Source: Candidatus Roizmanbacteria bacterium RIFCSPLOWO2_01_FULL_40_13 (GTDB taxonomy: Bacteria > Patescibacteriota > Microgenomatia > UBA1406 > GWC2-37-13). From it: a stretch of 38,262 nucleotides of DNA. The notes under the pieces were generated by a model. The model did not search any database, was not told the DNA's origin, and saw only the letters and a list, made by a program, of their open reading frames with translations. Position numbers and translations under genes: made by a program. The DNA is taken from contig MGAN01000008.1 in NCBI GenBank assembly GCA_001789745.1, positions 28,624 to 66,885 on the forward strand. The letters are read 5' to 3'. Numbering within the stretch: the stretch's first letter is position 1; each line of letters opens with the position of its first letter. Positions 1 to 12,001 of the stretch are shown one piece after another.

Positions 1-45
1 TTTCCCTGCCGTAACTTTTACTTTATCTCCTTTTCTAATTTTCAT
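1..45 (-). CDS. rplX: Ribosomal protein L24, N-terminal fragment (cut by window edge)
   Basis: Fifteen codons are visible, reading MKIRKGDKVKVTAGK, which is the standard opening of bacterial L24: the start of a KOW-type barrel that binds 23S rRNA early in 50S assembly. The ATG lies one base after the rplN stop, so the two genes are read as one operon and are probably translationally coupled. The rest of the gene lies outside the window. Identification rests on this short stretch plus the conserved rplN-rplX order. Confidence 0.85.
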   Translation of the reverse strand, partial: MKIRKGDKVKVTAGK

Positions 46-46
46 A

Positions 47-421
47 TTAATAAATTTCCTCTGCTAAACTTGCAATTTTAGCAAACCCGAGATCTTTTAT
101 TTCTTTTGCGATTGGCCCGAATATTCTGGTGCCTTTTGGATCTTTGCTATTTTTATCCAAAAGGATTACGCAGGCATTATCATCAAATCGGATATAACTG
201 CCATCTTCACGACGTTTCTCTTTTCTAGTTCTGACAACCACAGCCCTTAAGATCTCGCTCTTTTTTACTTGAGCGTAGGGTACTGCATTTTTCACGGTAA
301 TATTGATAATGTCTCCTATATAGGCATAGCGTCGATTACCTTTTCCAGGTAATCCAATCATCATAACTTTTTTCGCTCCTGCATTATCTGCTGTCACCAA
401 CATTGATCTAAGCTGTAACAT
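47..421 (-). CDS. rplN: 50S ribosomal protein L14
   Basis: L14 binds 23S rRNA near the L19 and L3 sites and helps form the intersubunit bridge to 16S rRNA. The protein reads MLQLRSMLVTADNAGAKKV at the start, carries the family's AYIGDII and VVVRTRKE stretches, and ends in FAKIASLAEEIY. With the ATG at 421 it has 124 residues, the normal family size. A TTG at 436 would add five residues with no family counterpart, so it was not used. It lies between rpsQ and rplX in the usual order. The 94-base spacer upstream is unusually long for this operon and holds an AT-rich inverted repeat. Confidence 0.97.
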   Translation of the reverse strand: MLQLRSMLVTADNAGAKKVMMIGLPGKGNRRYAYIGDIINITVKNAVPYAQVKKSEILRAVVVRTRKEKRREDGSYIRFDDNACVILLDKNSKDPKGTRIFGPIAKEIKDLGFAKIASLAEEIY

Positions 422-515
422 AAAAATTAAATTCAAAACTCAAATTGCAAAAGTCAAAACTTTTTCTAGGTCAAAAAAGTTTTGAACTTTAAATTAAAGT
501 TTTGCTTTTTGACTT
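422..515. repeat. AT-rich inverted repeat between rpsQ and rplN
   Basis: This spacer interrupts an otherwise tight ribosomal operon. It holds two imperfect arms built on AAAGTCAAAACTTTTT and AAAAAAGTTTTGAACTTT, flanked by further complementary TTTTGACTTTT-like tracts, so it can fold into a long AT-rich hairpin in the rpsQ-rplN transcript. It resembles the other low-complexity spacer repeats in the window (for example 34373-34471). No GC-rich stem followed by a U-tract is present, so a terminator is not supported. Confidence 0.5.
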
Positions 516-752
516 TTAATTTTTGATTTTTTCGATTACTATAAAATGTTTCTCTTTTGAGATCGGCCTGCTTTCCTTAATTTTCACTTTATCGCCTTCT
601 TTTAAATCAAACTTTTCGTTATGTGCTTTGAGTTTTTTATGCACGGTAATTATCTTTTTGTATACGGGATGTTCCAGTTTTCTCTCTATTCTAACAACAA
701 CTGTTTTCTGCATTTTATTGGAAACGACAATACCTGTAAATATTTTTGCCAT
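516..752 (-). CDS. rpsQ: 30S ribosomal protein S17
   Basis: S17 is a primary 16S rRNA-binding protein of the 30S body. The 78-residue product begins [20 protein letters not shown], carries the HPVYKK and HKKLKAHNE motifs of the OB-fold core, and ends with the usual basic region ([11 protein letters not shown]). Length is normal for the family. It starts three bases downstream of the rpmC stop and is part of the same minus-strand operon. Nothing unusual is seen in the protein. Confidence 0.97.
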
Positions 753-755
753 ATG

Positions 756-983
756 TTAGGATGTTTCATTTAAATTATTAATTTTTTCAATTTCTTTTTT
801 TTGCCCCAAAATCGTCAAGACGACCGCCAATTCTTTTCGCTTCTTCATAATGATATTTGTGTCTTTAACTTGATTAACGGCTGACTCTAGCTTCAATTTG
901 GCTAATTCATTTCTCAGATTAACTGTTTCATTCTCAAGTTCTGTGATTGACTTTTTTTTGATTTCATTTATTATTTTTCTCAT
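756..983 (-). CDS. rpmC: 50S ribosomal protein L29
   Basis: L29 sits at the polypeptide exit tunnel and forms part of the docking site for trigger factor and SRP. The 75-residue product is a predicted two-helix hairpin with the family pattern ELENETVNLRNELAKLKLE followed by a second basic helix (MKKRKELAVVLTILGQKKEI). It overlaps the end of rplP by four bases (ATGA type), so translational coupling to L16 is likely. A short C-terminal tail after the second helix is slightly longer than in E. coli L29 (63 residues). Confidence 0.95.
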   Translation of the reverse strand: MRKIINEIKKKSITELENETVNLRNELAKLKLESAVNQVKDTNIIMKKRKELAVVLTILGQKKEIEKINNLNETS

Positions 984-1390
984 AGTTGTCTCTTAACTAT
1001 TTTTGTCCTAACCGAAAGTTTGGAAGCTACATTTTTTAAAACAACAGCGCTTTCTTCAGATGATAGTCCGTCAATTTCAAATAAAATCCTGCCCGGGCTT
1101 ACATTGGCTACAAAATTTGCGACATCGCCTTTACCGGCTCCCATGGTAACTTCCGGTGGTTTTTTGGTATAGGGTTTGTCTGGAAAAATCCTTATCCAAA
1201 ATTTACCGTTTTTCCTGGTAGCCCTTGCCAAAGCTACTCTTGCCGCTTCTATCTCCTTATCTTTAATCCAGCCGGGGGTCAGAGCTTTTAATCCGAACAA
1301 ACCGAAAATCATCTTTTCACCTTTTACGGCAATTCGCCTCCAGCTACCTCTAAATTGTTTTCGATATTTTTGCCTCTTGGGTGCGAGCAT
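980..1390 (-). CDS. rplP: 50S ribosomal protein L16
   Basis: L16 organises the A-site and peptidyl-transferase region of the large subunit. The 136-residue protein starts MLAPKRQKYRKQFRG, has the GLKALTPGWI segment, and contains the loop PEVTMGAGKGDVANFVANVSPGR, which corresponds to the conserved MGKGKG...W-V-A-V-V-KPGR loop of other bacteria. That loop is diverged here: the usual aromatic-Trp-Val-Ala pattern is replaced by NFVAN. Length is normal. It begins one base after the rpsC stop and overlaps rpmC by four bases. Confidence 0.97.
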   Translation of the reverse strand: MLAPKRQKYRKQFRGSWRRIAVKGEKMIFGLFGLKALTPGWIKDKEIEAARVALARATRKNGKFWIRIFPDKPYTKKPPEVTMGAGKGDVANFVANVSPGRILFEIDGLSSEESAVVLKNVASKLSVRTKIVKRQL

Positions 1391-1391
1391 A

Positions 1392-2060
1392 TTATCGACA
1401 AATCCAAACTTTTACACCGATATAACCTGATTTTGTCAAAGCTGCGTATTTAGCGAAGTCTACTTCTTCTCTGATTGTCGAGGTAGGAATGACTCCCACA
1501 GAATATTTTTCACGTCGGGAAATTTCTGCACCGGCAATTCTACCCCCCAACTGAATCTTACCTCCTCTTGCCCCGGCTTCTGTAATTCTATTTAGGGTAT
1601 TGTGGACTATTGATCTATGTGGAAAATTTTTTACCAATTTTTCGGCAATTGACTGTGCTACATAGTACGCATTAGCATATGGTCTTTTAACTGGTTCTAT
1701 TTTAATTTCAAGTTTCTGCGTCTTTCCTTTTCGCTCAGAAGGTGATCGCTCTTTGCGTGATTTACCAACGTCTAAATATGAAGATACAAATCTTTTGACC
1801 TCTTCTAAACCCTTGCCGCCCCGGCCTATGATCATACCTGGTTTTACTGAATGAATTATCAGAGTAATTTTGTTAATTGCCCGCTCAATATCAATTTCCG
1901 TCACAGCGGCATAACTTAACTTATTCAGTAAAAGAGACCTGATTTTACTGTCTGAAAGCAGCGCTTGCCTGTAGGCTTTTTTATTGGAAAAAAACCAGCG
2001 CGAACTCCAGTTGTATAAAATTCCAAGTCGTAATCCCCTTGGATGAACTTTTTGACCCAT
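1392..2060 (-). CDS. rpsC: 30S ribosomal protein S3
   Basis: S3 lines the mRNA entry tunnel of the 30S subunit. The 222-residue product begins MGQKVHPRGLRLGI, has a KH domain with the GxxG loop (GMIIGRGGKG), and the C-terminal domain with GARGGKIQLGGRIAGAEISRRE. A basic, Ser/Lys/Arg-rich linker (about residues 97-113, around KSRKERSPSERKGK) follows the KH GxxG helix and is longer and more basic than in E. coli S3. It lies between rplV and rplP in the standard order, 34 bases after the rplV stop. Confidence 0.97.
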   Translation of the reverse strand: MGQKVHPRGLRLGILYNWSSRWFFSNKKAYRQALLSDSKIRSLLLNKLSYAAVTEIDIERAINKITLIIHSVKPGMIIGRGGKGLEEVKRFVSSYLDVGKSRKERSPSERKGKTQKLEIKIEPVKRPYANAYYVAQSIAEKLVKNFPHRSIVHNTLNRITEAGARGGKIQLGGRIAGAEISRREKYSVGVIPTSTIREEVDFAKYAALTKSGYIGVKVWICR

Positions 2061-2166
2061 AATTATTCAAGCTCTAATTACTAATTTCTAAATTCTAAAT
2101 TTTTTTGTTTTTGACTTTGGATTTTGGAAATTTGGATTTGTTTAGAATTTCGGATTTAGGATTTAG
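2061..2166. repeat. AT-rich 'AAATCCTAAATTCTAAA' spacer repeat running into rplV
   Basis: The rplV-rpsC spacer and the last codons of rplV consist of short tandem-like units of the type CTAATTTCTAAATTC and AAATCCGAAATTC. The same low-complexity units occur in spacers at about 11605-11632, 11836-11897, 22741-22790, 23020-23085, 34373-34471 and 36565-36640. Here they are translated as the tail of L22. No coding or structural role is obvious beyond that. Confidence 0.55.
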
Positions 2167-2520
2167 AGTTTCAGTTTTTTTAGTTGGTTCTTGTGATTCT
2201 AGTATTACTTTCACGTGTGCAAATCTTCTTAAAATCGGCATTGCCGTACCTCTGCTTCCCGCCTTAAATCTTTTTAACCTTTGCCCTTGTTCTACGCTTA
2301 AGTGCTTAAATTCTATAGATTTAACATCAACTTTTAGCTGATTTTTAGCATTACTCAGTGCCGATTTTATAACTTTGTAAAATACTTTAGCCGCTTTATT
2401 TGGCAAATATAGCAAATAGTCCAGCGCTTCAGCAGGAGACTTCTTCTTAATCTCCGGTAAAAAAAATCTCAATTTCTTCGGCGATATTTTTAAATTCCTG
2501 AAAAAAGAAACAGCTTCCAT
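2095..2520 (-). CDS. rplV: 50S ribosomal protein L22 with repeat-encoded C-terminal tail
   Basis: L22 lines the polypeptide exit tunnel. The core (about residues 1-111) is canonical: FFRNLKISPKKLRFF at the start, ALSNAKNQ in the middle, and the beta-hairpin region RFKAGSRGTAMPILRRFAHVKVIL at the end. E. coli L22 ends here, at 110 residues. This protein continues for about 30 residues rich in Lys, Ser, Pro and Asn (KSEILNKSKFPKSKVKNKKI), encoded by the same AT-rich repeat that fills non-coding spacers elsewhere in the window. The tail therefore looks like read-through into spacer repeat. Upstream, the gene follows rplB directly instead of rpsS. Confidence 0.96.
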   Translation of the reverse strand: MEAVSFFRNLKISPKKLRFFLPEIKKKSPAEALDYLLYLPNKAAKVFYKVIKSALSNAKNQLKVDVKSIEFKHLSVEQGQRLKRFKAGSRGTAMPILRRFAHVKVILESQEPTKKTETLNPKSEILNKSKFPKSKVKNKKI

Positions 2521-2567
2521 CTAACTTAATTTTTTTCGGATCATGTAAAATTTATAATGAAAATCTA

Positions 2568-3332
2568 TTATTTTCTCCTTTTGACAATAAACTTATTACT
2601 CCATTTTTTATGTTTTCGCGTGTTCTTGCCTTTGGCGGGCTTACCCCATGGCGTCTTGGGATGCATGCCTTCTCCAACTTTACCTTCACCCCCACCATGC
2701 GGATGGCTGCGAGGATTTTGAGCGGTTCCCCGTACCGTTGGTCTTACCCCCATCAATCTCTTCCGACCAGCTTTACCGATAATCCTAAATTTGTGTTCCG
2801 GATTACCCAATTGACCTATGGTAGCATAACAATCGGCTATTACTCGCCTAATCTCTCCTGAAGAAAGCTTAATCTGAGCATATTTGCCTTCTTTAGCTAT
2901 GACTACAGCCGCGGTTCCCGCGCTTCTTGCTATCTGTCCGCCTTTACCCGGGTACAACTCGATATTATGTATCTGCATACCAACAGGTATATTCTTAATA
3001 GACAATGTATTACCGGGCTTAAGATCTGCTTTTTCTGAAGTCAGGATGGTGCTTCCGACTTTCATATCTTTAGCTTGTAGAATATATCTCCTTTCTCCGT
3101 CTGCGTATTTTATTAAAGCGATGTCTAGGTTTCTATTTGGATCATATTCTATAGCTTCTACCTTACCCTCGACTTCTCTTTTGTCTCTTTTGAAATCAAT
3201 TATTCGGTAATACCTCTTATGCCTCCCGCCCTGATGCCGAACGCTTATCTTACCGCTCGAGTCCCGTCCCGAATGTTTTTTCAGGATAACCTTTAACCTT
3301 TTTTTCGAATTTTTTGTGTTTAAATTTTTCAT
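2568..3332 (-). CDS. rplB: 50S ribosomal protein L2
   Basis: L2 is a primary 23S rRNA-binding protein needed for subunit association and peptidyl transfer. The 254-residue product contains the OB/SH3-like core ([31 protein letters not shown]), the conserved [20 protein letters not shown] region, and the C-terminal signature [19 protein letters not shown], which includes the His essential in other bacteria. It is about 20 residues shorter than E. coli L2, mainly at the N-terminus. The next gene downstream should be rpsS but is rplV. Confidence 0.97.
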
Positions 3333-3375
3333 ACTGACTGCTGATAACTGACAACCGACTATCGATTACAAACTT

Positions 3376-3663
3376 TTATGTTTGCGGAAATAAGTCTATC
3401 TTTCCTTCTCTCAATTTAACCAGCGCGATTTTTCTGTCGGTTAGCTTTTTGACTACCATTTTCTTCCCGACCTTTCTTTTTTTCCCTTTCCTAATCATCA
3501 TTCTTACTTGACTGACTTTGACTTTATACAGTTTTTCTAAAGCATCTTTGACTTTAGCTTTATCTGCCCCGTCTCTTACCTCAAAGGTATAAACTTGATT
3601 ATTTGCAAGATTAGTAGCTTTTTCAGTTAAGACCGGTTTGACAAATATATCTTCAATTTTCAT
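3376..3663 (-). CDS. rplW: 50S ribosomal protein L23
   Basis: L23 sits at the tunnel exit and is the main ribosomal contact for trigger factor and SRP. From the ATG at 3663 the protein has 95 residues: MKIEDIFVKPVLTEKATNL, the family's opening helix-strand, then YTFEVRDGADKAKVKDALEKLY and the basic RKGKKRKVGKK loop. A TTG at 3684 would add seven unconserved residues and was not used. The chosen start overlaps the end of rplD by 11 bases, so coupling is likely. Confidence 0.95.
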   Translation of the reverse strand: MKIEDIFVKPVLTEKATNLANNQVYTFEVRDGADKAKVKDALEKLYKVKVSQVRMMIRKGKKRKVGKKMVVKKLTDRKIALVKLREGKIDLFPQT

Positions 3664-4357
3664 GTAAAAAATGCAGCTTGACAACTTGTAATGCCTCCTC
3701 TACAAATAATATTTTTTTATTTTTTAGAATTTCATACGGATTAAGCGATCTCGCTCCCAGCAACGTAATATTTTTAATATTTCTTGAGGCTAAAATCAGA
3801 TTGTTTTTTTCCATTTTCGCCAACACTATTAAAGTTCTTGACCTTTCAAGATCTAAAGATTTTAAAAATTGAACCATTAGTTTTGTTTTTACATCAATCT
3901 TAAGCAATTGTTCACTCAATCCGCCTATCTCTTTGTTTTTAAATTTTATAGTTAATGCATTAAATAAAGCTAATTTCTTTTGTTTCTTATTCATCTTCAA
4001 GTGATAGTTTTTTGGTTTCGGACCGCCTACCACTCCACCCCCAACAAATATCGGCGCTTTAATATCGCCATGCCGCGCTCGCCCCGTTCCCTTTTGACGA
4101 TATATTTTTCTGGTTGACCCCCTTACTTCTCCTCGGGTTTTCGTGGAGGCTGTTCCTTGACGGTTATTAGTCAAATAGACGCGAACATATTGGGCCAGCA
4201 ACTTCGGATTCGGCTTAACAGAAAAAATTTCTTTGGGAACATCCAGAGTCTTAACTTCTTTCCCCTCTAAGTTATAGACTGGAATAGTGAGGCCTTCGCC
4301 AGACTTTTTTGGGTTGTTTTTTTTAACTGTTTTCGTTTCTTTCTTGATTCTTGGCAT
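3653..4357 (-). CDS. rplD: 50S ribosomal protein L4
   Basis: L4 binds 23S rRNA domain I and reaches into the exit tunnel; in enterobacteria it also autoregulates the S10 operon. The 234-residue protein has a Lys-rich N-terminal extension of about 22 residues, then the core (IPVYNLEGKEVKTLDVPKEIF), the tunnel loop (STKTRGEVRGSTRKIYRQKGTGRARHG, about residues 72-98), and the C-terminal Rossmann-like half ending in KLHFLHEN. It begins 23 bases after the rplC stop. Its possible role in regulating the upstream leader is discussed under that entry. Confidence 0.97.
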   Translation of the reverse strand: MPRIKKETKTVKKNNPKKSGEGLTIPVYNLEGKEVKTLDVPKEIFSVKPNPKLLAQYVRVYLTNNRQGTASTKTRGEVRGSTRKIYRQKGTGRARHGDIKAPIFVGGGVVGGPKPKNYHLKMNKKQKKLALFNALTIKFKNKEIGGLSEQLLKIDVKTKLMVQFLKSLDLERSRTLIVLAKMEKNNLILASRNIKNITLLGARSLNPYEILKNKKILFVEEALQVVKLHFLHEN

Positions 4358-4380
4358 ATTTAAATTTATATTTTAATTTT

Positions 4381-5040
4381 TCATTTTAACTTTTTAATTT
4401 CCAACAATCCTCCCTTTGCTCCCGGCACCAATCCTTTAACCACAATTCCGTCATCCTTAATCTCCATAATTTTTAATTTTTTCACGGTGACCCTATTGCC
4501 TCCCATTCTCCCGGCCATCCTTTTACCTTTATAAACTCTGCCTGGAGTCGTGGTTTGACCGATAGATCCGGGCGCCCGTTCGCGGTCGGACTGACCGTGA
4601 GTTCTTGGGCCGCCGGAAAATCGGTGTCTTTTTACAACGCCTTGAAATCCCTTGCCTTTTGCTGTACCTGATACATTAACATAATCCCCTTGTTTGAAAA
4701 AAAAAGCTGGTTTTAATTCTTCACCCGGCTCAATTTTGTGGTTATTTATAACAATTCCCTCCTTTTGAAATTTATCGCTTTCCAGCCGAAACTCTCGCAA
4801 AAAACGAAGCGGGGTTTTTATCCCCGCTTTTGACAATTTTCCTTGATTTGGTTTGCTGATATTCTTGCTTTTAGCTTGACCAAATCCGAGCATGACTGAA
4901 AAATAACCCTGTCTGGCCGGCTCTTTGATATCCACGATAAAACAAGGCGAAGTGACAATAAAAGTCGTTGGAATCCTGAAGCCTGCCTCATCAAAAGACT
5001 GTGATTGTTCTGATTTTTTTCCTAAAATAAATCCTTGCAT
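4381..5040 (-). CDS. rplC: 50S ribosomal protein L3
   Basis: L3 nucleates 50S assembly together with L24. From the ATG at 5040 the protein has 219 residues and begins MQGFILGKKSEQSQSFDEAG, equivalent to the usual MKGLIGRKIGMTQIFDEDG; a TTG at 5058 was rejected because it lies in the terminator U-tract and adds residues with no counterpart. The central basic loop KGKGFQGVVKRHRFSGGPRTHGQSDRERAPGSIG is intact. No Shine-Dalgarno sequence is visible: the 17 bases before the ATG follow directly on a terminator-like hairpin. Its own promoter and structured leader lie upstream. Confidence 0.96.
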   Translation of the reverse strand: MQGFILGKKSEQSQSFDEAGFRIPTTFIVTSPCFIVDIKEPARQGYFSVMLGFGQAKSKNISKPNQGKLSKAGIKTPLRFLREFRLESDKFQKEGIVINNHKIEPGEELKPAFFFKQGDYVNVSGTAKGKGFQGVVKRHRFSGGPRTHGQSDRERAPGSIGQTTTPGRVYKGKRMAGRMGGNRVTVKKLKIMEIKDDGIVVKGLVPGAKGGLLEIKKLK

Positions 5041-5163
5041 AAGTTTTTGGGCAAACAAAAAAGCCCCAGATTGGGGCTCTCTAGTATTCTAACCAATCTG
5101 GCAAATTCCTATCCGCTATCTCCCGAGTCTATCCCAGTAAGCTGGACGGGGAAAAATAACATC
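5041..5163 (-). ncRNA. Structured 5' leader of rplC with mutually exclusive hairpins (probable attenuator)
   Basis: The RNA from the promoter at 5170-5198 would run about 120 bases before the rplC ATG. Read 5' to 3' it can form an outer helix CCCG (5150-5147) with CGGG (5125-5122), an inner CCAG/CTGG tetraloop hairpin (5145-5134), then CCAGATTGG (5101-5093) which is perfectly complementary to CCAATCTGG (5074-5066). The second partner is part of the terminator hairpin at 5078-5057, so the two pairings exclude each other: the normal arrangement of antiterminator and terminator. This is direct sequence evidence for the structures. That a ribosomal protein (L3 or L4) binds the leader is inference. 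I do not recognise it as a described ribosomal-leader family. Confidence 0.7.
5057..5078 (-). terminator. Intrinsic terminator immediately before rplC
   Basis: On the minus strand a perfect 6-bp stem AGCCCC/GGGGCT with the loop AATCT is followed by six T residues. It lies downstream of the rplC promoter and ends 16 bases before the rplC ATG, so it cannot simply end the rpsJ transcript: every rplC transcript from either source must pass it. The 5' arm and loop are shared with the antiterminator pairing described for the leader. Confidence 0.8.
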
Positions 5164-5169
5164 AGGGAA

Positions 5170-5198
5170 ATTATATAACAAGCTTTGCTTTTGGTCAA
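5170..5198 (-). promoter_or_regulatory. Sigma70-type promoter for rplC
   Basis: On the minus strand the -35 box TTGACC (5198-5193) is separated by exactly 17 bases from a consensus -10 box TATAAT (5175-5170). Transcription would start near 5163, inside the rpsJ-rplC spacer. This gives the rplC-rplX genes a promoter independent of tuf-rpsJ. Confidence 0.8.
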
Positions 5199-5221
5199 GG
5201 AGATCTTTTAGGAATTAAAAT

Positions 5222-5530
5222 TTACATTTTTACTTCAACTTCAACTCCTGCGGGGAGTTCCAGGTGCATGAGCGAATCTATTGTCTGATTGGTGGGATTG
5301 TTGATATCGATGAGGCGTTTGTGTATTTTTAAGCCAAAGTGCTCGCGGGCGTCTTTATCAATAAATGGTGATTTGTTTACCGGATAGACTTCTTTTTTTG
5401 TTGGGAGAGGGATTGGTCCAATTATGAACGCGCCTGTCCTGATGGCAGTATCTACTATCTTTTGACAGGTCTCGTCGATCAATCTGTGATCGTAGGCTTT
5501 GAGTCTAATTCTTATTCTACCCTTTGGCAT
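5222..5530 (-). CDS. rpsJ: 30S ribosomal protein S10
   Basis: S10 is part of the 30S head and, as NusE, of antitermination complexes. The 102-residue protein begins MPKGRIRIRLKAYDHRLID and carries IRTGAFIIGPIPLPTKKEVY and the C-terminal LMHLELPAGVEVEVKM, all diagnostic for the family. It lies downstream of tuf across a 122-base spacer occupied by a palindromic repeat, and is separated from rplC by a promoter and attenuator-like leader. No clear Shine-Dalgarno site precedes the ATG. Confidence 0.97.
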   Translation of the reverse strand: MPKGRIRIRLKAYDHRLIDETCQKIVDTAIRTGAFIIGPIPLPTKKEVYPVNKSPFIDKDAREHFGLKIHKRLIDINNPTNQTIDSLMHLELPAGVEVEVKM

Positions 5531-5551
5531 AATTTAAAAGTGCTAAAAATA

Positions 5552-5655
5552 TGATGCTGATCTACGGATTCCATGCGGATCACCGGATATGCAGATTGAA
5601 TATCCGTAAAATCCGAACATCCGTATCATCCGAATAAGATCCGTAATCCGCATCA
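5552..5655. repeat. CGGAT/ATCCG palindromic repeat, copy 1 (tuf-rpsJ spacer)
   Basis: The left half is rich in CGGAT (CTACGGATTCC, TGCGGATCACCGGATATG) and the right half in the complement ATCCG (ATATCCGTAAAATCCG, GATCCGTAATCCGCATCA), so the segment can fold back on itself. The outer arm even covers the tuf stop codon. A second copy with the same composition lies between argS and radA (29490-29590). Function unknown. Confidence 0.65.
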
Positions 5656-6837
5656 CTTAACGATTTTTGTCACTACTCCGGCGCCCACTGTGTGCCCGCC
5701 TTCTCTTATTGCAAATTTCAATCCTTCTTCCATAGCAACCGGGTAAATCAGTTTAGCCGAAATCTTGACGTTGTCTCCCGGCATTACCATCTCCACTCCT
5801 GATGGAAGCTTAAGCTCTCCTGTCACATCTGTCGTGCCGATATAAAACTGTGGTCTGTAACCGTTGAAAAATGGAGTATGTCGTCCACCTTCTTCTTTGG
5901 TTAAAACATAAATCTCCGCTTCAAATTCGGAGTGTGGAGTAATGCTGCCCGGCTTGGCCAATACTTGTCCGCGCTGCACATCCTCTTTTTCAATACCCCT
6001 AAGCAGCAGTCCGACATTGTCTCCTGCTCTTGTCTCATCAAGGGTTTTTCTGAACATCTCAATTCCGGTGACTACCGTTTTTTTAGTCGCTTTAAGACCT
6101 ACTATTTCTATTTCTTCGTTTACTTTTAGAGTACCCCTGCCAACTCTTCCTGTCACAACCGTCCCTCTACCTTGAATCGTAAATACATCTTCAATCGGCA
6201 TGAGGAATGGCTTATCTACATCACGTTTTGGTTCTGGTATATTTTCGTCTACGGCTTTGACTAGCTCCTCGATGCTTTTCATAGCTTCCGCATCGTCCTG
6301 CAGAGCCTTAAGAGCAGAGCCTTTGATCACGGGTATTTTATCACCCGGAAATTTATATTTGGTGAGCAGATCCCTAACCTCCATCTCAACCAGGTCCAGA
6401 AGTTCTTTATCCTGAACCATATCGGTCTTGTTGAGAAAGACAACAATTGCTGGGACGTTTACCTGCCTGGCCAATAAGATATGTTCTCTGGTTTGGGGCA
6501 TTGGTCCGTCTGGAGCGGATACTACCAGAATCGCGCCATCCATTTGGGCGGCGCCGGTAATCATATTTTTAATGTAGTCTGCGTGCCCCGGTGCATCAAT
6601 ATGGGCATAGTGTCTTTTTTCAGTTTCGTATTCGGAGTGGTGAAGATTGATGGTAACTCCCCGCGCTTTCTCTTCTGGAGCTTTATCTATCTCCTCATAC
6701 TTTAAGAATTTGGCCATTCCTTTCTTGGAAAGCACATAATGAATGGCTGAAGTTAAAGTGGTTTTTCCATGATCCACATGACCGATGGTACCAATGTTTA
6801 AATGGGGTTTGTCTCTTTTAAATACTCCGGTAGCCAT
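5653..6837 (-). CDS. tuf: Elongation factor Tu
   Basis: EF-Tu delivers aminoacyl-tRNA to the ribosome as a GTP complex. The 394-residue protein has the P-loop GHVDHGKT (residues 19-26), the switch I region with [13 protein letters not shown], the G3 motif as DAPGHADY (the usual Cys is Ala), and G4 NKTDMV. Domains 2 and 3 follow with [12 protein letters not shown] and [16 protein letters not shown], ending in [13 protein letters not shown]. Placement upstream of rpsJ matches the common str-S10 order, though rpsL, rpsG and fusA are not adjacent here; the gene beyond tuf is the divergent helicase. Confidence 0.98.
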
Positions 6838-6882
6838 AGATATATTATTATTTATTCACCTTTAATTGTGAACGGTTTCTCT

Positions 6883-6911
6883 ATCATAATTGCTACATTA
6901 ATAAAAGTCAA
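6883..6911 (-). promoter_or_regulatory. Promoter of tuf
   Basis: On the minus strand TTGACT (6911-6906) and TATGAT (6888-6883) are 17 bases apart. The predicted start is near 6876, giving a leader of about 40 bases containing AAAGGTGA about 17 bases before the ATG, an unusually distant Shine-Dalgarno-like sequence. The -35 box lies next to the -10 box of the divergent helicase gene. Confidence 0.75.
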
Positions 6912-6918
6912 GGGGTTC

Positions 6919-6927
6919 TGATAGAAT
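6919..6927 (+). promoter_or_regulatory. Extended -10 promoter of the helicase gene
   Basis: TG-A-TAGAAT forms an extended -10 box whose last base is 7 bases before the helicase ATG, so transcription should start at or next to the start codon. No Shine-Dalgarno site can fit. No good -35 box is seen. It abuts the divergent tuf promoter. Confidence 0.6.
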
Positions 6928-6934
6928 TGGTTTC

Positions 6935-9913
6935 ATGAAAAAAAAAGGCTTTGCTTTAAATTTAGAGCAAGAAAAAGCAGTCAAACATCAAAAAGGCCCT
7001 CTCTTGATTATTGCCGGGGCTGGCACAGGCAAAACTACCGTCATTACCGAAAGAATTAAATATCTGATTAGCGAAAAACTGGCCAAACCGGAGGAAATTC
7101 TGGCGCTCACCTTTACCGAAAAGGCAGCCCGGGAAATGGAAAAAAGAGTTGACATCGCCCTCCCCTATGGCACTTTTGCCATGTGGATCTCAACCTTTCA
7201 CGCTTTCACTGACAGGATTCTTCGCAACGATTCATTAAATATTGGAATTTCCTCCAATTTCAAGCTGCTTACGGACGCTGAAACTTATCTATTTATCAAA
7301 AATAACATTTGGCAATTTAATCTGAACTTTTTTCGACCCCAAGGCAATCCTTATAAATTTATCGAGGGTATGATCCAACATTTTTCCCGCTTAAAGGATG
7401 AAGATGTAAATGTAAATTCATATCTCGACTTTGCTAAAAAAATTAAAGCAGACAAAGAAGAAAAACAGAAATATATGGAACTGGCACAAGCTTATAAAGT
7501 ATATGAACAGCTTAAACTTAAAGAGGGGGTCATGGACTTTGCCGATCTAATAGGTAATACTTTGCAACTTTTTAGAAAAAGAAAATCGTTACTGACTAAA
7601 TACCAAAAGCAGTTTAAATACATCCTGGTTGATGAATTTCAGGATACGAATTTTGCCCAATATCAGCTGGTGAAATTGCTAGCCCCCGTCGATCAAAAGC
7701 CTAATCTCACAGTCGTAGGAGACGATAGTCAATCAATCTACAAATTCAGGGGTGCAGCAATCTCAAATATTCTCTCTTTTATGGAAGATTATACCAATAC
7801 TAATCACGTTGTCTTGACCACAAGCTATCGCTGTCCCCAGACAATTCTTGACGCGGCTTATAAATTAATCCGGCACAACAACCCCGATACCCTGGAATCA
7901 CAGCTTGGTATCACTAAAAATCTGAAATCTCATCGGGATAAAAAAGGCGAAAAAATTGAGCTCATTCATACTGATAAAGTTGAATCCGAGGCGGAAAAAG
8001 TAATCGCTTTTATCCGCGAATACAAAACAAGCCATAAAAAAGAATATAAGGATTTTGCTATTCTGGTTCGGGCCAATAATCACAGCGCCCCTTTCATTCG
8101 CGAGCTTGAAAGGGTCAGAATTCCGTTCCAATTCCTAGGACCCGGCTCTCTCTTTCAGAGACCCGAAGTTAAAGATCTGATCGCCTACCTTCAGGTTTTG
8201 GCTGATTTTACAGATTCGGTAAGTCTTTATCGTGTTTTGTCGATGCCGATCTGGAAATTATCAAGCCGCGACCTAATAGCGGTTTTAAATCAGGCTAAAA
8301 AGGCAAATTTGTCTTTATTTGAGTTGTTGGAAAAAATGACTTCTTCGGAACAGGTGACAAAGATGGAAGGCTATCCCGACGGCACACGGTCACAGACGAG
8401 CACTGGACTGAGGGAAACCTCTGATAGAATCTGGAGTAATCCGTTTCATATCTCAAAGGACTCTCAAACTAAATTAATTAAATTCGTTTCGCAAGTTCAC
8501 CGGCACCAGAAATTGGTCAACCAAGAAACTGCCGGACAATTACTCTACTATTTTCTCATCGATAGCGGTTTATTAAGGCAACTGGTTGAATACAGGTCGC
8601 AAAGCGAAGAAAGACAGGTTTTGAATATTACCAAGTTTTTCGACAAGTTAAAAAATTACGAAGCAACCCATCAAGATGCAAGCGTTTTTACTCTTGTCGA
8701 TTATTTGGAATTGGCGATGAATATTGGAGAAAGTCCGCTGGCTGCCGAGATTGACTGGACGGAAAATAATGCTGTCAATATCCTGACAGTTCATTCCTCC
8801 AAAGGGTTGGAGTTTCCGGTAATCATTCTGCCTAATCTTGTGGAAGGAAGATTTCCCTCCAGAGACAGAAGGGATAAAATTCCGATTCCCGATGAATTGA
8901 TCAAAGAAACTCTGCCTTCAGGCGATTATCATCTTCAGGAGGAAAGAAGATTATTTTATGTAGCCATGACCAGGGCCCGGGAAAAACTTATCTATTCCGT
9001 CTCAAATTATTACGGTGAAGGAAAGAGAGAGCGTAAACTATCCGCCTATATTTATGAATCGCTGGAGTTGAGTAAAAATGAAACGACGTTGCAACACTCA
9101 CCAGAATCACAAATCCCCCTCTTCGAATGGAATAAGTCAAGAAACGAAGAAAGCGTTAATACCGATAGGCATTCCGAAAAATTCAAACTTGACTTTCTAT
9201 CCTATTCGGCTATCCAAACTTTTAAAATCTGTCCTCTGCATTTCAAACTACGCTATATTTTGCGTATTCCAACGGCTCCGAGCCCTGCCCAATCAATAGG
9301 AAATTCCGTACATGCGGTGATGCGCGATTTTTATAATTTGCGGCATCCTGGTGAAGATGACGAAAAACTTATACTTAGGCTGCTGGAAACAAATTGGCTA
9401 ACTTACGGCTATGACAGCAAGAGACATCAGGAATTGGCAAAAGCAAAAACAAAAGTACAGCTTATTAATTATCTACGAAGGCCCCTCCATCAATCAGCCA
9501 ATCCGATCTATCTGGAACAGGGATTTAATTTCCGCATCAACCCGGCCTTAAAAATCCTCGGCAAAATTGACCGGGTTGACGACCGAGGCGGTGGCAACAT
9601 CGAAATTATCGACTACAAAACCGGCGCCAATATCCCAACCCAAAAAAAACTTGACGCGGATCTTCAGATGACCATCTATGCTTTAGCAGCTGTCAATCCG
9701 GCACTTTTCAATAAACAGATCAATCAAATCAAAATGAGTCTTTATTTTTTTGATAAGTCGCAAACTTTATCTACGACACGCAGTCAAGATCAATTAAACC
9801 AATCCGCAAATCAACTTCTGGAAATTAGGGATGAGATTGAAAAATCCGATTTTCACTGCAGTCAAAATTCCATCTGCCGCAACTGCGAATACAAAATGCT
9901 TTGTGATGACTAA
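6935..9913 (+). CDS. UvrD/PcrA-type helicase fused to a RecB-like nuclease with Fe-S cysteines
   Basis: A 992-residue SF1A DNA helicase with all expected motifs: Walker A AGAGTGKT (27-34), Walker B VDEFQDTN, GDDSQSIYKFRGA, SYRCP, a conserved VHSSKGLEFPVIILP block and EERRLFYVAMTRAREK. The C-terminal third (from about 750) is a PD-(D/E)XK nuclease with GKIDRVD (about 875) and IIDYKTG (about 890). One Cys in FKICPLHFK (about 766) plus three in the final CSQNSICRNCEYKMLC match the Fe-S staple of AddB/AdnAB-type nucleases. It probably processes DNA double-strand ends, as RecBCD or AdnAB do; which partner it uses is unknown. Residues about 475-510 (KMEGYPDGTRSQ... to IWSNPF) have no clear family counterpart and look inserted. 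Confidence 0.9.
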   Translation: MKKKGFALNLEQEKAVKHQKGPLLIIAGAGTGKTTVITERIKYLISEKLAKPEEILALTFTEKAAREMEKRVDIALPYGTFAMWISTFHAFTDRILRNDSLNIGISSNFKLLTDAETYLFIKNNIWQFNLNFFRPQGNPYKFIEGMIQHFSRLKDEDVNVNSYLDFAKKIKADKEEKQKYMELAQAYKVYEQLKLKEGVMDFADLIGNTLQLFRKRKSLLTKYQKQFKYILVDEFQDTNFAQYQLVKLLAPVDQKPNLTVVGDDSQSIYKFRGAAISNILSFMEDYTNTNHVVLTTSYRCPQTILDAAYKLIRHNNPDTLESQLGITKNLKSHRDKKGEKIELIHTDKVESEAEKVIAFIREYKTSHKKEYKDFAILVRANNHSAPFIRELERVRIPFQFLGPGSLFQRPEVKDLIAYLQVLADFTDSVSLYRVLSMPIWKLSSRDLIAVLNQAKKANLSLFELLEKMTSSEQVTKMEGYPDGTRSQTSTGLRETSDRIWSNPFHISKDSQTKLIKFVSQVHRHQKLVNQETAGQLLYYFLIDSGLLRQLVEYRSQSEERQVLNITKFFDKLKNYEATHQDASVFTLVDYLELAMNIGESPLAAEIDWTENNAVNILTVHSSKGLEFPVIILPNLVEGRFPSRDRRDKIPIPDELIKETLPSGDYHLQEERRLFYVAMTRAREKLIYSVSNYYGEGKRERKLSAYIYESLELSKNETTLQHSPESQIPLFEWNKSRNEESVNTDRHSEKFKLDFLSYSAIQTFKICPLHFKLRYILRIPTAPSPAQSIGNSVHAVMRDFYNLRHPGEDDEKLILRLLETNWLTYGYDSKRHQELAKAKTKVQLINYLRRPLHQSANPIYLEQGFNFRINPALKILGKIDRVDDRGGGNIEIIDYKTGANIPTQKKLDADLQMTIYALAAVNPALFNKQINQIKMSLYFFDKSQTLSTTRSQDQLNQSANQLLEIRDEIEKSDFHCSQNSICRNCEYKMLCDD

Positions 9914-9961
9914 GAGAAAAGTCTAAATCCTATTTCTGAATAAATTTAAGTATTTAAAAAT

Positions 9962-10010
9962 AACCACCCCTTTTATCCCCTCCTTGGTAAGGAGGGGAAA
10001 CAGGGGAGGA
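9962..10010. repeat. AACCACCCC...AGGGGAGGA palindromic repeat, copy 1
   Basis: An imperfect palindrome whose core is CCCCTCCTTG-GTAAGGAGGGG, flanked by AACCACCCC on the left and CAGGGGAGGA on the right. Related copies are at 24425-24470 and 36503-36552. The surrounding spacer (9914-10123) holds nothing else I can identify except the -10 box of the next gene. Confidence 0.7.
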
Positions 10011-10110
10011 TTGATGTTTTTGCACCTCTTATTATTTGGATTTTGAAAATTGAGTTAGCAGCGTTTTACGTGGTTTCGAGATTCGGAATTCGAAATTTGC
10101 GAAAGTAGTA

Positions 10111-10116
10111 TATAAT
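10111..10116 (+). promoter_or_regulatory. Consensus -10 box of the GT2 gene
   Basis: TATAAT ends 7 bases before the ATG at 10124, so the transcript should begin at or very near the start codon. No -35 match is evident and no Shine-Dalgarno site exists in the short interval. Confidence 0.6.
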
Positions 10117-10123
10117 AGGGTAA

Positions 10124-11602
10124 ATGGTTAATTATCTTGTCAACACAACCCTCGCACAACGATTTTTTGATGCCATAATTCCGGTACTAAGCTGGGTGGT
10201 AATTACCTTGCCTCTCTGGCTTTCTCCTTTTCATCCTGCAGTCGTTGCTTATTTCATTATTTCTTTTGACCTGTACTTTCTTTACAAAGCCGTTTCAACC
10301 GCTTATTTTGCCACCCTTTCTTATCGTTATATCCAGCTAAATCAAAATGTCCCTTTCGCTAAAAAACTGCTCAATCTCCCAAAAGCCAAACAGATTAAAC
10401 ACTTTATCATCATTCCCAATTTTAAAGAACCGCTTTATAAACTAGAGCAGACAATCCAGGCTTTGCAAAAATCTGATTATCCCTATAAAAATATTTTCTT
10501 GGTATTGGCTTTTGAAAGTAGGGAATTGGAAGTGAGAAAGAAGGCTCGAAAGTTGCAGGTAAAATTTAGGCAAAGTTTTACCGATATAATTATTACTTAT
10601 CACCCGCTTCTGCCTGCCGAAGTTCCCGGTAAAGCCAGCAATCAGACCTTCGCCGCCAAACAAGTCAAAGAAATAATTACTAAAAACAATTGGAGAATGC
10701 AAGATTGTCTAATCACCATCTGTGATGCGGACAGTTGTTTATCGGCTAAATATCTTTCATGTTTAACCCACGGGTACCTAAAAGACGGCCGGCGTCTCTA
10801 CCACTTTTATTGGGCTCCGGTGCTTTTATATAACAATTTTTGGCAGTTGCCTTTATTCATCAGAATTCAAGCCACATTGTCATCTATTCTCCGTCTGGCT
10901 TTCCTTTCGCAAAAAGATAAATTAATCCAAATCTCAACCTACTCGACTAACCTTTGGCTTTTAAATAAAGTCAAATTTTGGGATGTCGATATCATTCCCG
11001 AGGACTGGCATATTTTTTATCAAGCTTTTTTCACTTTTGGTGAAAAAATTAGGACAATTCCTCTGTTTACCCTGGTCAACGGTGATGCCGTCAACTCCGG
11101 GGGGCTCTTAAAAACATCAGGAAGCAGATATGAACAGGAAAAACGTTGGGCTTGGGGAGTATCTGATATAAGCTACGTCCTGAAGAAATTTTTCTCGACG
11201 CCTAAAATTAATGCTTTTGTTAAATTGAGAAGAATCATTTTCTTGATGGAAACCCATCTTCTTTGGACTACCTCTTTTTTCATATTAACGGTATCGGCTT
11301 CGGTACCGCCTCTCATCAACCCTGTCTTTAAAAGAACCGTACTCGGGTTTCTTTTGCCTAAACTTTCGGGTTTTATCTTAACATTTGCGTCGCTTTTATT
11401 AATCTTGTATATCTATCTTGATTATCAGTTGAGGATAAAACTTAATCACAAAATCAAGATTACTTCTCTCCCACTCATGTTTATCCAGTGGTATCTATTA
11501 CCTTTAGTTTCCTTTATCTTCTCCTCACTTCCCGCCCTCGACGCACATACGCGTTTACTTTTCGGTAAAAAAATAAAATACAAAGTTACCGAAAAGATAT
11601 AA
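10124..11602 (+). CDS. Membrane glycosyltransferase family 2 (cellulose synthase-like)
   Basis: A 492-residue processive-type GT2 enzyme. Two hydrophobic segments (about 15-60) precede the cytosolic catalytic domain: the nucleotide-binding strand HFIIIPNFKEP (about 89), the DxD motif in ICDADS (about 199), EDWHIFYQAFF (about 292) and a QxxRW-like EKRWAWG (about 341). At least three membrane segments follow (about 370-470). It should transfer sugar from a nucleotide-sugar donor to a lipid or glycan at the membrane; substrate cannot be told. It is followed, after a repeat-filled spacer, by another membrane glycosyltransferase, suggesting a role in cell-surface glycans. Confidence 0.8.
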   Translation: MVNYLVNTTLAQRFFDAIIPVLSWVVITLPLWLSPFHPAVVAYFIISFDLYFLYKAVSTAYFATLSYRYIQLNQNVPFAKKLLNLPKAKQIKHFIIIPNFKEPLYKLEQTIQALQKSDYPYKNIFLVLAFESRELEVRKKARKLQVKFRQSFTDIIITYHPLLPAEVPGKASNQTFAAKQVKEIITKNNWRMQDCLITICDADSCLSAKYLSCLTHGYLKDGRRLYHFYWAPVLLYNNFWQLPLFIRIQATLSSILRLAFLSQKDKLIQISTYSTNLWLLNKVKFWDVDIIPEDWHIFYQAFFTFGEKIRTIPLFTLVNGDAVNSGGLLKTSGSRYEQEKRWAWGVSDISYVLKKFFSTPKINAFVKLRRIIFLMETHLLWTTSFFILTVSASVPPLINPVFKRTVLGFLLPKLSGFILTFASLLLILYIYLDYQLRIKLNHKIKITSLPLMFIQWYLLPLVSFIFSSLPALDAHTRLLFGKKIKYKVTEKI

Positions 11603-11700
11603 AATCAAATCCTAAATTCTAATTTCTAAATCCGAAACCAATTCAATAATATTAAAATGAACTACTCCGCAGCAGAGCTGCGAAGTATCTGAAAAACAAT

Positions 11701-11777
11701 TGTCATCCTGAACTTGTACACCCTGAGCTTGTCGAATGGGTTTCAGGATCTGGATTCCCGCCTTCGCGGGAATGACA
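11701..11777. repeat. GTCATCC...GGAATGACA palindromic repeat
   Basis: Starts TGTCATCCTGAAC and ends GCGGGAATGACA, with an internal CCCGCCTTCGCGGG hairpin. Relatives occur at 22832-22996 (interrupted), 33363-33470, in miaB (17667-17692) and in epmA (32877-32931). Repeats with this TGTCAT...ATGACA outline are widespread in bacterial genomes; the type here is not traced to a mobile element. Confidence 0.65.
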
Positions 11778-11897
11778 GAGGTAACCCCGAAGTAAAACTT
11801 CGAGGAATTCTTTTGATTAAAATCCAAAACAATTTATATTTTATTGCTTAGAATTTTGCAATTTGAATTTTGGGTTTGTTTAGAGTTTAGGATTTAG

Positions 11898-12001
11898 TAT
11901 ACCCATCTTAGTTGATTTTGCAAATTGTCAACTAAAGTTATCTTATCAAATCAACTAAGGAGGGGTATATACTGATTGCGATTTCAATTAATAGAAGTAT
12001 A
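11898..12001 (+). repeat. Two-hairpin TATACCC element, copy R1
   Basis: The first hairpin (11898-11969) has near-complementary arms, TATACCCATCTTAGTTGATTT against AAATCAACTAAGGAGGGGTATA. The second (11968-12001) runs TATACTGATTG to GAAGTATA. The whole is 104 bases. Copy R2 (22858-22962) is nearly identical; R3 (25465-25568) and R4 (31596-31698, reversed) keep ends, size and two-hairpin layout but differ inside. It stops 13 bases before the ATG of the downstream glycosyltransferase. Confidence 0.8.

Follow-up and report, generated by a model that had tools for sequence, protein, structure and literature searches.

The rplC (L3-L4-L23-L2...) operon of a Candidatus Roizmanbacteria genome is headed by an RNA leader that probably acts as a ribosome-mediated transcription attenuator without a sensor codon. 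Comparison of related genomes supports this reading, as the stop codon of a short upstream open reading frame (uORF) is held beside, or in Levybacteria within, the 5' arm of a predicted antiterminator. The leader lies in a 38,262-nt stretch of DNA, the whole of which is referred to here as the window, from Candidatus Roizmanbacteria bacterium RIFCSPLOWO2_01_FULL_40_13 (GCA_001789745.1, contig MGAN01000008.1, positions 28,624-66,885, forward strand). The named members of the source genome's family are Candidatus Roizmanbacteria, Microgenomates.

The original prediction described a promoter, leader arms, a nine-base complement, a terminator and the rplC start codon on the minus strand, and each was found at its place. 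The promoter TTGACC-N17-TATAAT (5170-5198, minus strand; -35 box 5198-5193, -10 box 5175-5170, spacer 17) agrees with the consensus at 11 of 12 positions, which makes it the top match among the 33 found in a scan of window positions 1-12000, a total that is itself at chance level. In almost every family genome inspected, the identical -35/-10 pair stands immediately 5' of the block. Downstream, a leader of ~105 nt with CCCG/CGGG and CCAG/CTGG arms precedes rplC (4381-5040, minus strand, ATG at 5040), the first gene of the controlled operon. The prediction placed this leader between rpsJ and rplC, which is correct for the window, but many relatives' rplC genes have no rpsJ in front of them, which makes the leader the start of the rplC operon and not an insertion between two genes. 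Its minimum free energy of -36.2 kcal/mol is unremarkable against shuffles (z = -1.29) and was dropped as uninformative evidence. An Rfam search with the leader returned nothing at the gathering score, and the weaker matches were at chance level (best E 0.13, and not to an S10 leader), consistent with the earlier proposal that the element is distinct from the leaders upstream of rpsJ. The element was not found described in the open-access literature, an absence that counts as weak evidence.

Two helices in the leader are mutually exclusive. The antiterminator 5' arm CCAGATTGG (5093-5101, minus strand) is complementary to its 3' arm CCAATCTGG (5066-5074), which lies within the intrinsic terminator T1 (5057-5078, minus strand; AGCCCC-AATCT-GGGGCT plus a T-run, stem 5078-5062). 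By hand calculation, ~0.003 perfect 9-mer complements to any window of the hairpin would be expected in the ~60 nt upstream. Across 48 family sequences, the T1 stem pairs in 91.9% of cells and covaries, with 21 double-sided cells compared to 8.0 in shuffles and none of 500 shuffles as high, making the terminator stem the best-supported predicted helix. The antiterminator pairs in 93.7% of cells and is nearly invariant within the family, where its changes are almost all wobble-preserving and double compensation occurs in a single cell. Because the sequence is nearly fixed, a within-family shuffle test of antiterminator covariation gave no signal, as expected where every base serves two helices. 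The covarying pairs anticipated for both helices were therefore seen in the terminator, while the antiterminator showed wobble-preserving change within the family and replacement of both arms between clades. A terminator and an antiterminator that share sequence upstream of a gene are the arrangement that marks a putative attenuator.

The architecture is widespread in the family. The block runs from TTGACC-N17-TATAAT through 7-9 nt, an ATG, a short hairpin region and C[A/G]GATTGG to a short spacer and GCCCCAATCTGGGGC with a T-run, followed by rplC. Of the 72 family genomes, at least 52 carry it, as a covariance model of the leader built from 27 family sequences found exactly one site in each of 52, directly upstream of rplC wherever inspected. 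This conservation settles that the element described earlier is real. The gene rplC itself was found in 69 of the 72 genomes. Several genomes that gave no match to the model have diverged sequences, a contig end within the block or a lost block, and the device has been lost or rebuilt in G008, G009, G018, G029, G031, G057, G080 and five genomes of genus g20. In those five (G058, G064, G065, G069 and G076; loci L208, L206, L207, L209 and L204), the antiterminator and terminator are gone, the uORF hairpin is followed by ~T8 and looks terminator-like, and the uORF runs without a stop, in a different frame, into the rplC start, an arrangement whose logic may be reversed such that translation opens the terminator. 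Separately, the rplC matches of genus g27 (L263 and L269, from G031 and G080) each contain one internal TGA, for which sequencing error, a broken gene and recoding are candidate explanations.

The original prediction had recognized a leader of ~105 bases correctly but overlooked a coding uORF within it. This uORF is apparently leaderless and has 17 codons, MLFFPVQLTGIDSGDSG followed by a stop (5109-5162, minus strand; TAG at 5111-5109), with its ATG 7 nt past the -10 box and its end 7 nt before the antiterminator core, or 6 nt by the scripted arm call. Transcription usually starts 6-8 nt past the -10 box; on that assumption the promoter-ATG spacing leaves a 5' leader of 0-3 nt, and the uORF begins at, or 1-3 nt from, the predicted 5' end of the transcript. 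Leaderless-type starts are normal in the genus, because the promoter plus ATG pattern, with 53 matches compared to 2 for the reversed pattern, opens ORFs of at least 49 aa in 23 of 30 retrieved matches. In a few genomes the antiterminator and terminator are present with no obvious ATG (G021, and G087 with a possible TTG).

The position of the uORF stop provides the strongest evidence in the case. We took 52 family genomes with an ATG 6-12 nt past the -10 box, asked whether the first in-frame stop ends -4 to 16 nt from the antiterminator 5' arm, and used dinucleotide-preserving shuffles of the intervening sequence as the null. The stop fell near the arm in 49 of the 52 genomes (9.7 expected from shuffles) and, counted by genus, in 28 of 30 (5.9 expected, p ~2e-18), versus 19 of 104 (18%) for the remaining two frames. 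The stop-to-arm gap is 5.3 +/- 2.8 nt despite uORF lengths of 9-25 codons, and all three stop codons are used with no type enriched across 30 genera. Among the three misses, G046 reflects a mis-called arm, its stop lying 2 nt from CAGATTGG; the stop of G091 falls immediately past the arm; and by our own inspection G083 reaches the correct place from a second ATG. This pattern argues that selection keeps a stop in frame with the 5'-end ATG and beside the switch, and its frame specificity is what would be expected of a uORF placed so that a ribosome chooses between the helices.

Levybacteria, Gottesmanbacteria and Woesebacteria retain the architecture with mostly different sequences, and between clades both antiterminator arms are replaced jointly. 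Gottesmanbacteria carry CGGATTTTGGG opposite CCCCGATCCGGGG or TCGGATGAG opposite CTCAACCGA, and Levybacteria carry GGCTACATAG, with the uORF stop inside it, opposite CTATGTGGTC. Native pairs of these arms, which were picked by eye, average -13.0 kcal/mol, compared to -7.0 when arms are swapped between clades. When the best complement was sought without bias upstream of the terminator, 19 of 45 leaders of other clades reached p<0.05. Of 33 scorable leaders from other Microgenomates clades, 29 have the stop near or inside the arm, versus 16 of 66 other frames, with the shuffle null being weak in this test since the arm itself holds the stop.

The exact hairpin core occurs once in the genome, rplJ of the genus follows a long untranslated leader with no uORF switch, and the starts of rpsL and rpsB also show no such switch, so the device is not a general ribosomal-protein regulon. 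Several other leaders were observed along the way. The leader 5' of genus rplJ (L243-L248) contains a conserved CACTAAGACY...GTGAAA that by eye is L10-leader-like and scores below the Rfam gathering score, and rpsB (L249-L254) apparently starts a few nt past its -10 box, such that this ribosomal-protein mRNA may be leaderless. A protein of unknown function in G002 and G003 (L213 and L218) is preceded by an apparently leaderless uORF, MKSLTNRTNWYHYHHLSGEVGIFVDLIMR, with GGGAGGTTGGT / ACTAACCTCCC opposite a CCTCCC..GGGAGG terminator. Finally, rplC leaders in other Microgenomates families (L052, L162, L174, L175, L183 and L189) share a conserved CAGTAGATCGCGCGTC...GATACGGCGA...GCGAGATACTGAGTGA, which in most is followed by a terminator, gave no Rfam match in those searched and is a candidate structured RNA.

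From the promoter, the uORF frame and stop, and both helices, all of which rest on the comparison of genomes, we infer a transcription start, translation of the uORF, masking of the antiterminator and ribosome supply as the signal. A ribosome that translates the uORF would reach the stop and cover or crowd the antiterminator 5' arm, in which case the terminator would fold, RNA polymerase would leave and the operon would be off. If no ribosome is loaded in time, or one is held further upstream, the antiterminator would form first and the operon would be transcribed. Ribosome supply would in this way feed back negatively on the synthesis of ribosomal proteins.

Folding calculations are compatible with this order of events. 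Nascent RNA that lacks the terminator 3' arm is predicted to form the antiterminator (median P 0.99), and the full-length leader at equilibrium is predicted to prefer the terminator even with no ribosome (median P 0.99), which means that the switch must work kinetically, as other attenuators do. Ribosome masking was computed for a downstream footprint of 10 nt. The antiterminator stayed intact for every ribosome position as far as 3 nt short of the stop, and its mean P was 0.61 with the ribosome at the stop, 0.30 at +3 nt and 0.18 at +6 nt. A terminating ribosome with this footprint would on average just weaken the antiterminator (0.61), and the uORF stop is the modeled threshold at which a ribosome starts to destroy it. 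We also considered a stop placed so as to shield the antiterminator from ribosomes, which would leave the tight upper limit on the gap and the Levybacteria case unexplained.

A more conventional reading is an autogenous leader, in which L3, L4 or another operon product binds the leader or its P1 hairpin (5122-5150, minus strand; CCCG/CGGG with an inner CCAG/CTGG) and stabilizes the terminator, with the uORF being secondary. Autogenous control is the usual regulation of ribosomal-protein operons, and in Bacillus subtilis rplJL a set of anti-antiterminator, antiterminator and terminator responds to L10(L12)4 (PMC4538822). P1 is also structured, in that the uORF regions form more stable folds than shuffles do (30 genera, mean z -1.67, 13 of 30 with p<=0.05), with the folding of the window's own P1 being not significant (z -0.63). 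However, P1 has no common sequence or size across genera, which tends to argue against a specific protein-binding site, and the switch sequences are replaced from clade to clade, the Rfam ribosomal-protein leaders give no match, and this reading does not explain why the stop follows the antiterminator across uORFs of 9-25 codons. We therefore consider it unlikely. The original prediction of an autoregulatory RNA with L3 or L4 as its ligand is unsupported on the same points, with P1 varying freely inside the uORF, the switch sequences differing completely between clades and the position of the uORF stop being the strongest constraint. That constraint suggests instead that the trigger is the ribosome. 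As for P1, our guess is that it could set timing through a pause of RNA polymerase or control access to the start codon.

Slightly less likely still is an attenuator that responds to amino acids or antibiotics, where ribosomes that stall at certain codons or are bound by a drug would free the antiterminator and induce the operon. The geometry resembles that of ilv/trp leaders and drug-responsive uORFs, many of the uORFs begin ATG-TTA, and ribosomes stalled early would leave the antiterminator intact. However, across 30 genera no residue is enriched over composition-matched shuffles and no sensor codon is apparent, and the peptide is not conserved, with related genera sharing almost nothing except Met. 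Amino-acid sensing was rejected on these residue counts, and neither the sensor codons nor the arrest peptide that would identify an amino-acid or drug subtype were found in the uORFs. Given this lack of any enriched amino acid or codon, the probable signal in the reading that we favor is the availability of ribosomes or the capacity for initiation or termination, and not charged tRNA. A general response to slowed translation is possible and overlaps with the ribosome-mediated attenuator that we favor. It is very improbable that T1 is an ordinary terminator insulating the rplC operon from tuf-rpsJ, with its upstream complement arising by chance, for even though it sits between two operons and its stem is the best-supported helix, the rplC promoter sits upstream of it, the block is retained where rplC does not follow rpsJ, and promoter, uORF stop and antiterminator arm are conserved jointly.

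Attenuation of largely the same genes (L3, L4, L23, L2...) is known from the S10-operon (L4) leader of E. coli and Bacillus, which lies upstream of rpsJ, depends on L4 and has no uORF switch. The rplC leader differs in its position between rpsJ and rplC, or 5' of rplC alone, and in its lack of an Rfam match, and we class it as a probable form of ribosome-mediated attenuation and not as an S10/L4 leader. The inferred masking geometry is that of Mycobacterium tuberculosis ilvB1, where the antiterminator is covered by a ribosome standing at the stop of the uORF (PMC13236596). Like the E. coli trp and his attenuators, ilvB1 combines a uORF with a mutually exclusive antiterminator and terminator, but these systems use sensor codons and control amino-acid operons, whereas the rplC leader has no sensor codons and heads a ribosomal-protein operon. 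Leaderless Cys-rich uORF attenuators in mycobacteria, as they are cited in PMC13236596, similarly use a leaderless short ORF as the sensor, but there it is a polycysteine sensor that responds to cysteine. The Sinorhizobium meliloti DUF1127 uORF was proposed to monitor ribosome availability through its translation and to repress when translation is efficient (PMC12218461), but its element has a ribosome-binding site and C-rich codons close to where the uORF begins, and its target is not a ribosomal-protein operon. B. subtilis rplJL shares a ribosomal-protein operon, an antiterminator/terminator and a leader peptide with the rplC leader, but its trigger is the protein L10(L12)4 and its leader peptide, which raises expression, lies 3' of the terminator (PMC4538822). 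None of the systems compared joins a leaderless, sensor-free uORF to a ribosomal-protein operon.

A second, strong intrinsic terminator, T2, lies inside rplC at about codon 71 (4799-4829, minus strand; AAGCGGGGATAAAAACCCCGCTT-CG-TTTTTT, given as 4829-4807 by the scan). All 20 relatives compared retain it at the level of nucleotides, and a T2-like hairpin with a T-run occurs at the homologous place in 56 of 78 Microgenomatia rplC genes, compared to 5.0 expected from a synonymous-codon null (43 of the 56 at p<=0.01) and to 1 of 17 in other Patescibacteria. The stems change by compensation (AAGCGGGG/CCCCGCTT, AAGCTGGG/CCCAGCTT and GAGCGGGG/CCCCGCTC). Counted by genus, 29 have both T2 and the leader switch, 5 have neither, 2 have the leader switch only and none has T2 only (Fisher 5.6e-5, with relatedness not corrected). 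In the count by genome, G063 was entered as having no T1 owing to a pattern miss, and the covariance model finds T1 there. We found no report of T2 in the literature. T2 would halt transcription if rplC is untranslated, and translation of rplC should suppress it, such that full expression would, speculatively, need an idle uORF and a translated rplC. A ribosome-driven T1 and a translation-dependent T2 conflict unless expression should peak at intermediate ribosome supply. We tentatively propose, as something that may well prove otherwise, that the leaderless and sensor-free uORF reports that a ribosome is at hand and shuts the operon, and that together with T2 it forms a two-stage gate, found throughout the Microgenomates, that would allow ribosomal-protein synthesis only while translation continues despite a shortage of ribosomes.

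The usual account of how bacteria adjust ribosomal-protein synthesis to the demand for ribosomes is that unbound ribosomal proteins attach to the mRNAs that encode them. In the rplC leader it is apparently the ribosome that is sensed, by a uORF whose stop position is conserved and whose peptide is not. If true, the leader would be a minimal cis-acting device for ribosome-level feedback, and translation inhibitors should induce the rplC operon. T2, which synonymous-codon choice preserves throughout a class, would act as another control element. The carriers are uncultured bacteria of very small size that form a large group, and if the reading is right it would explain how bacteria in which few regulators are known govern their largest biosynthetic investment.
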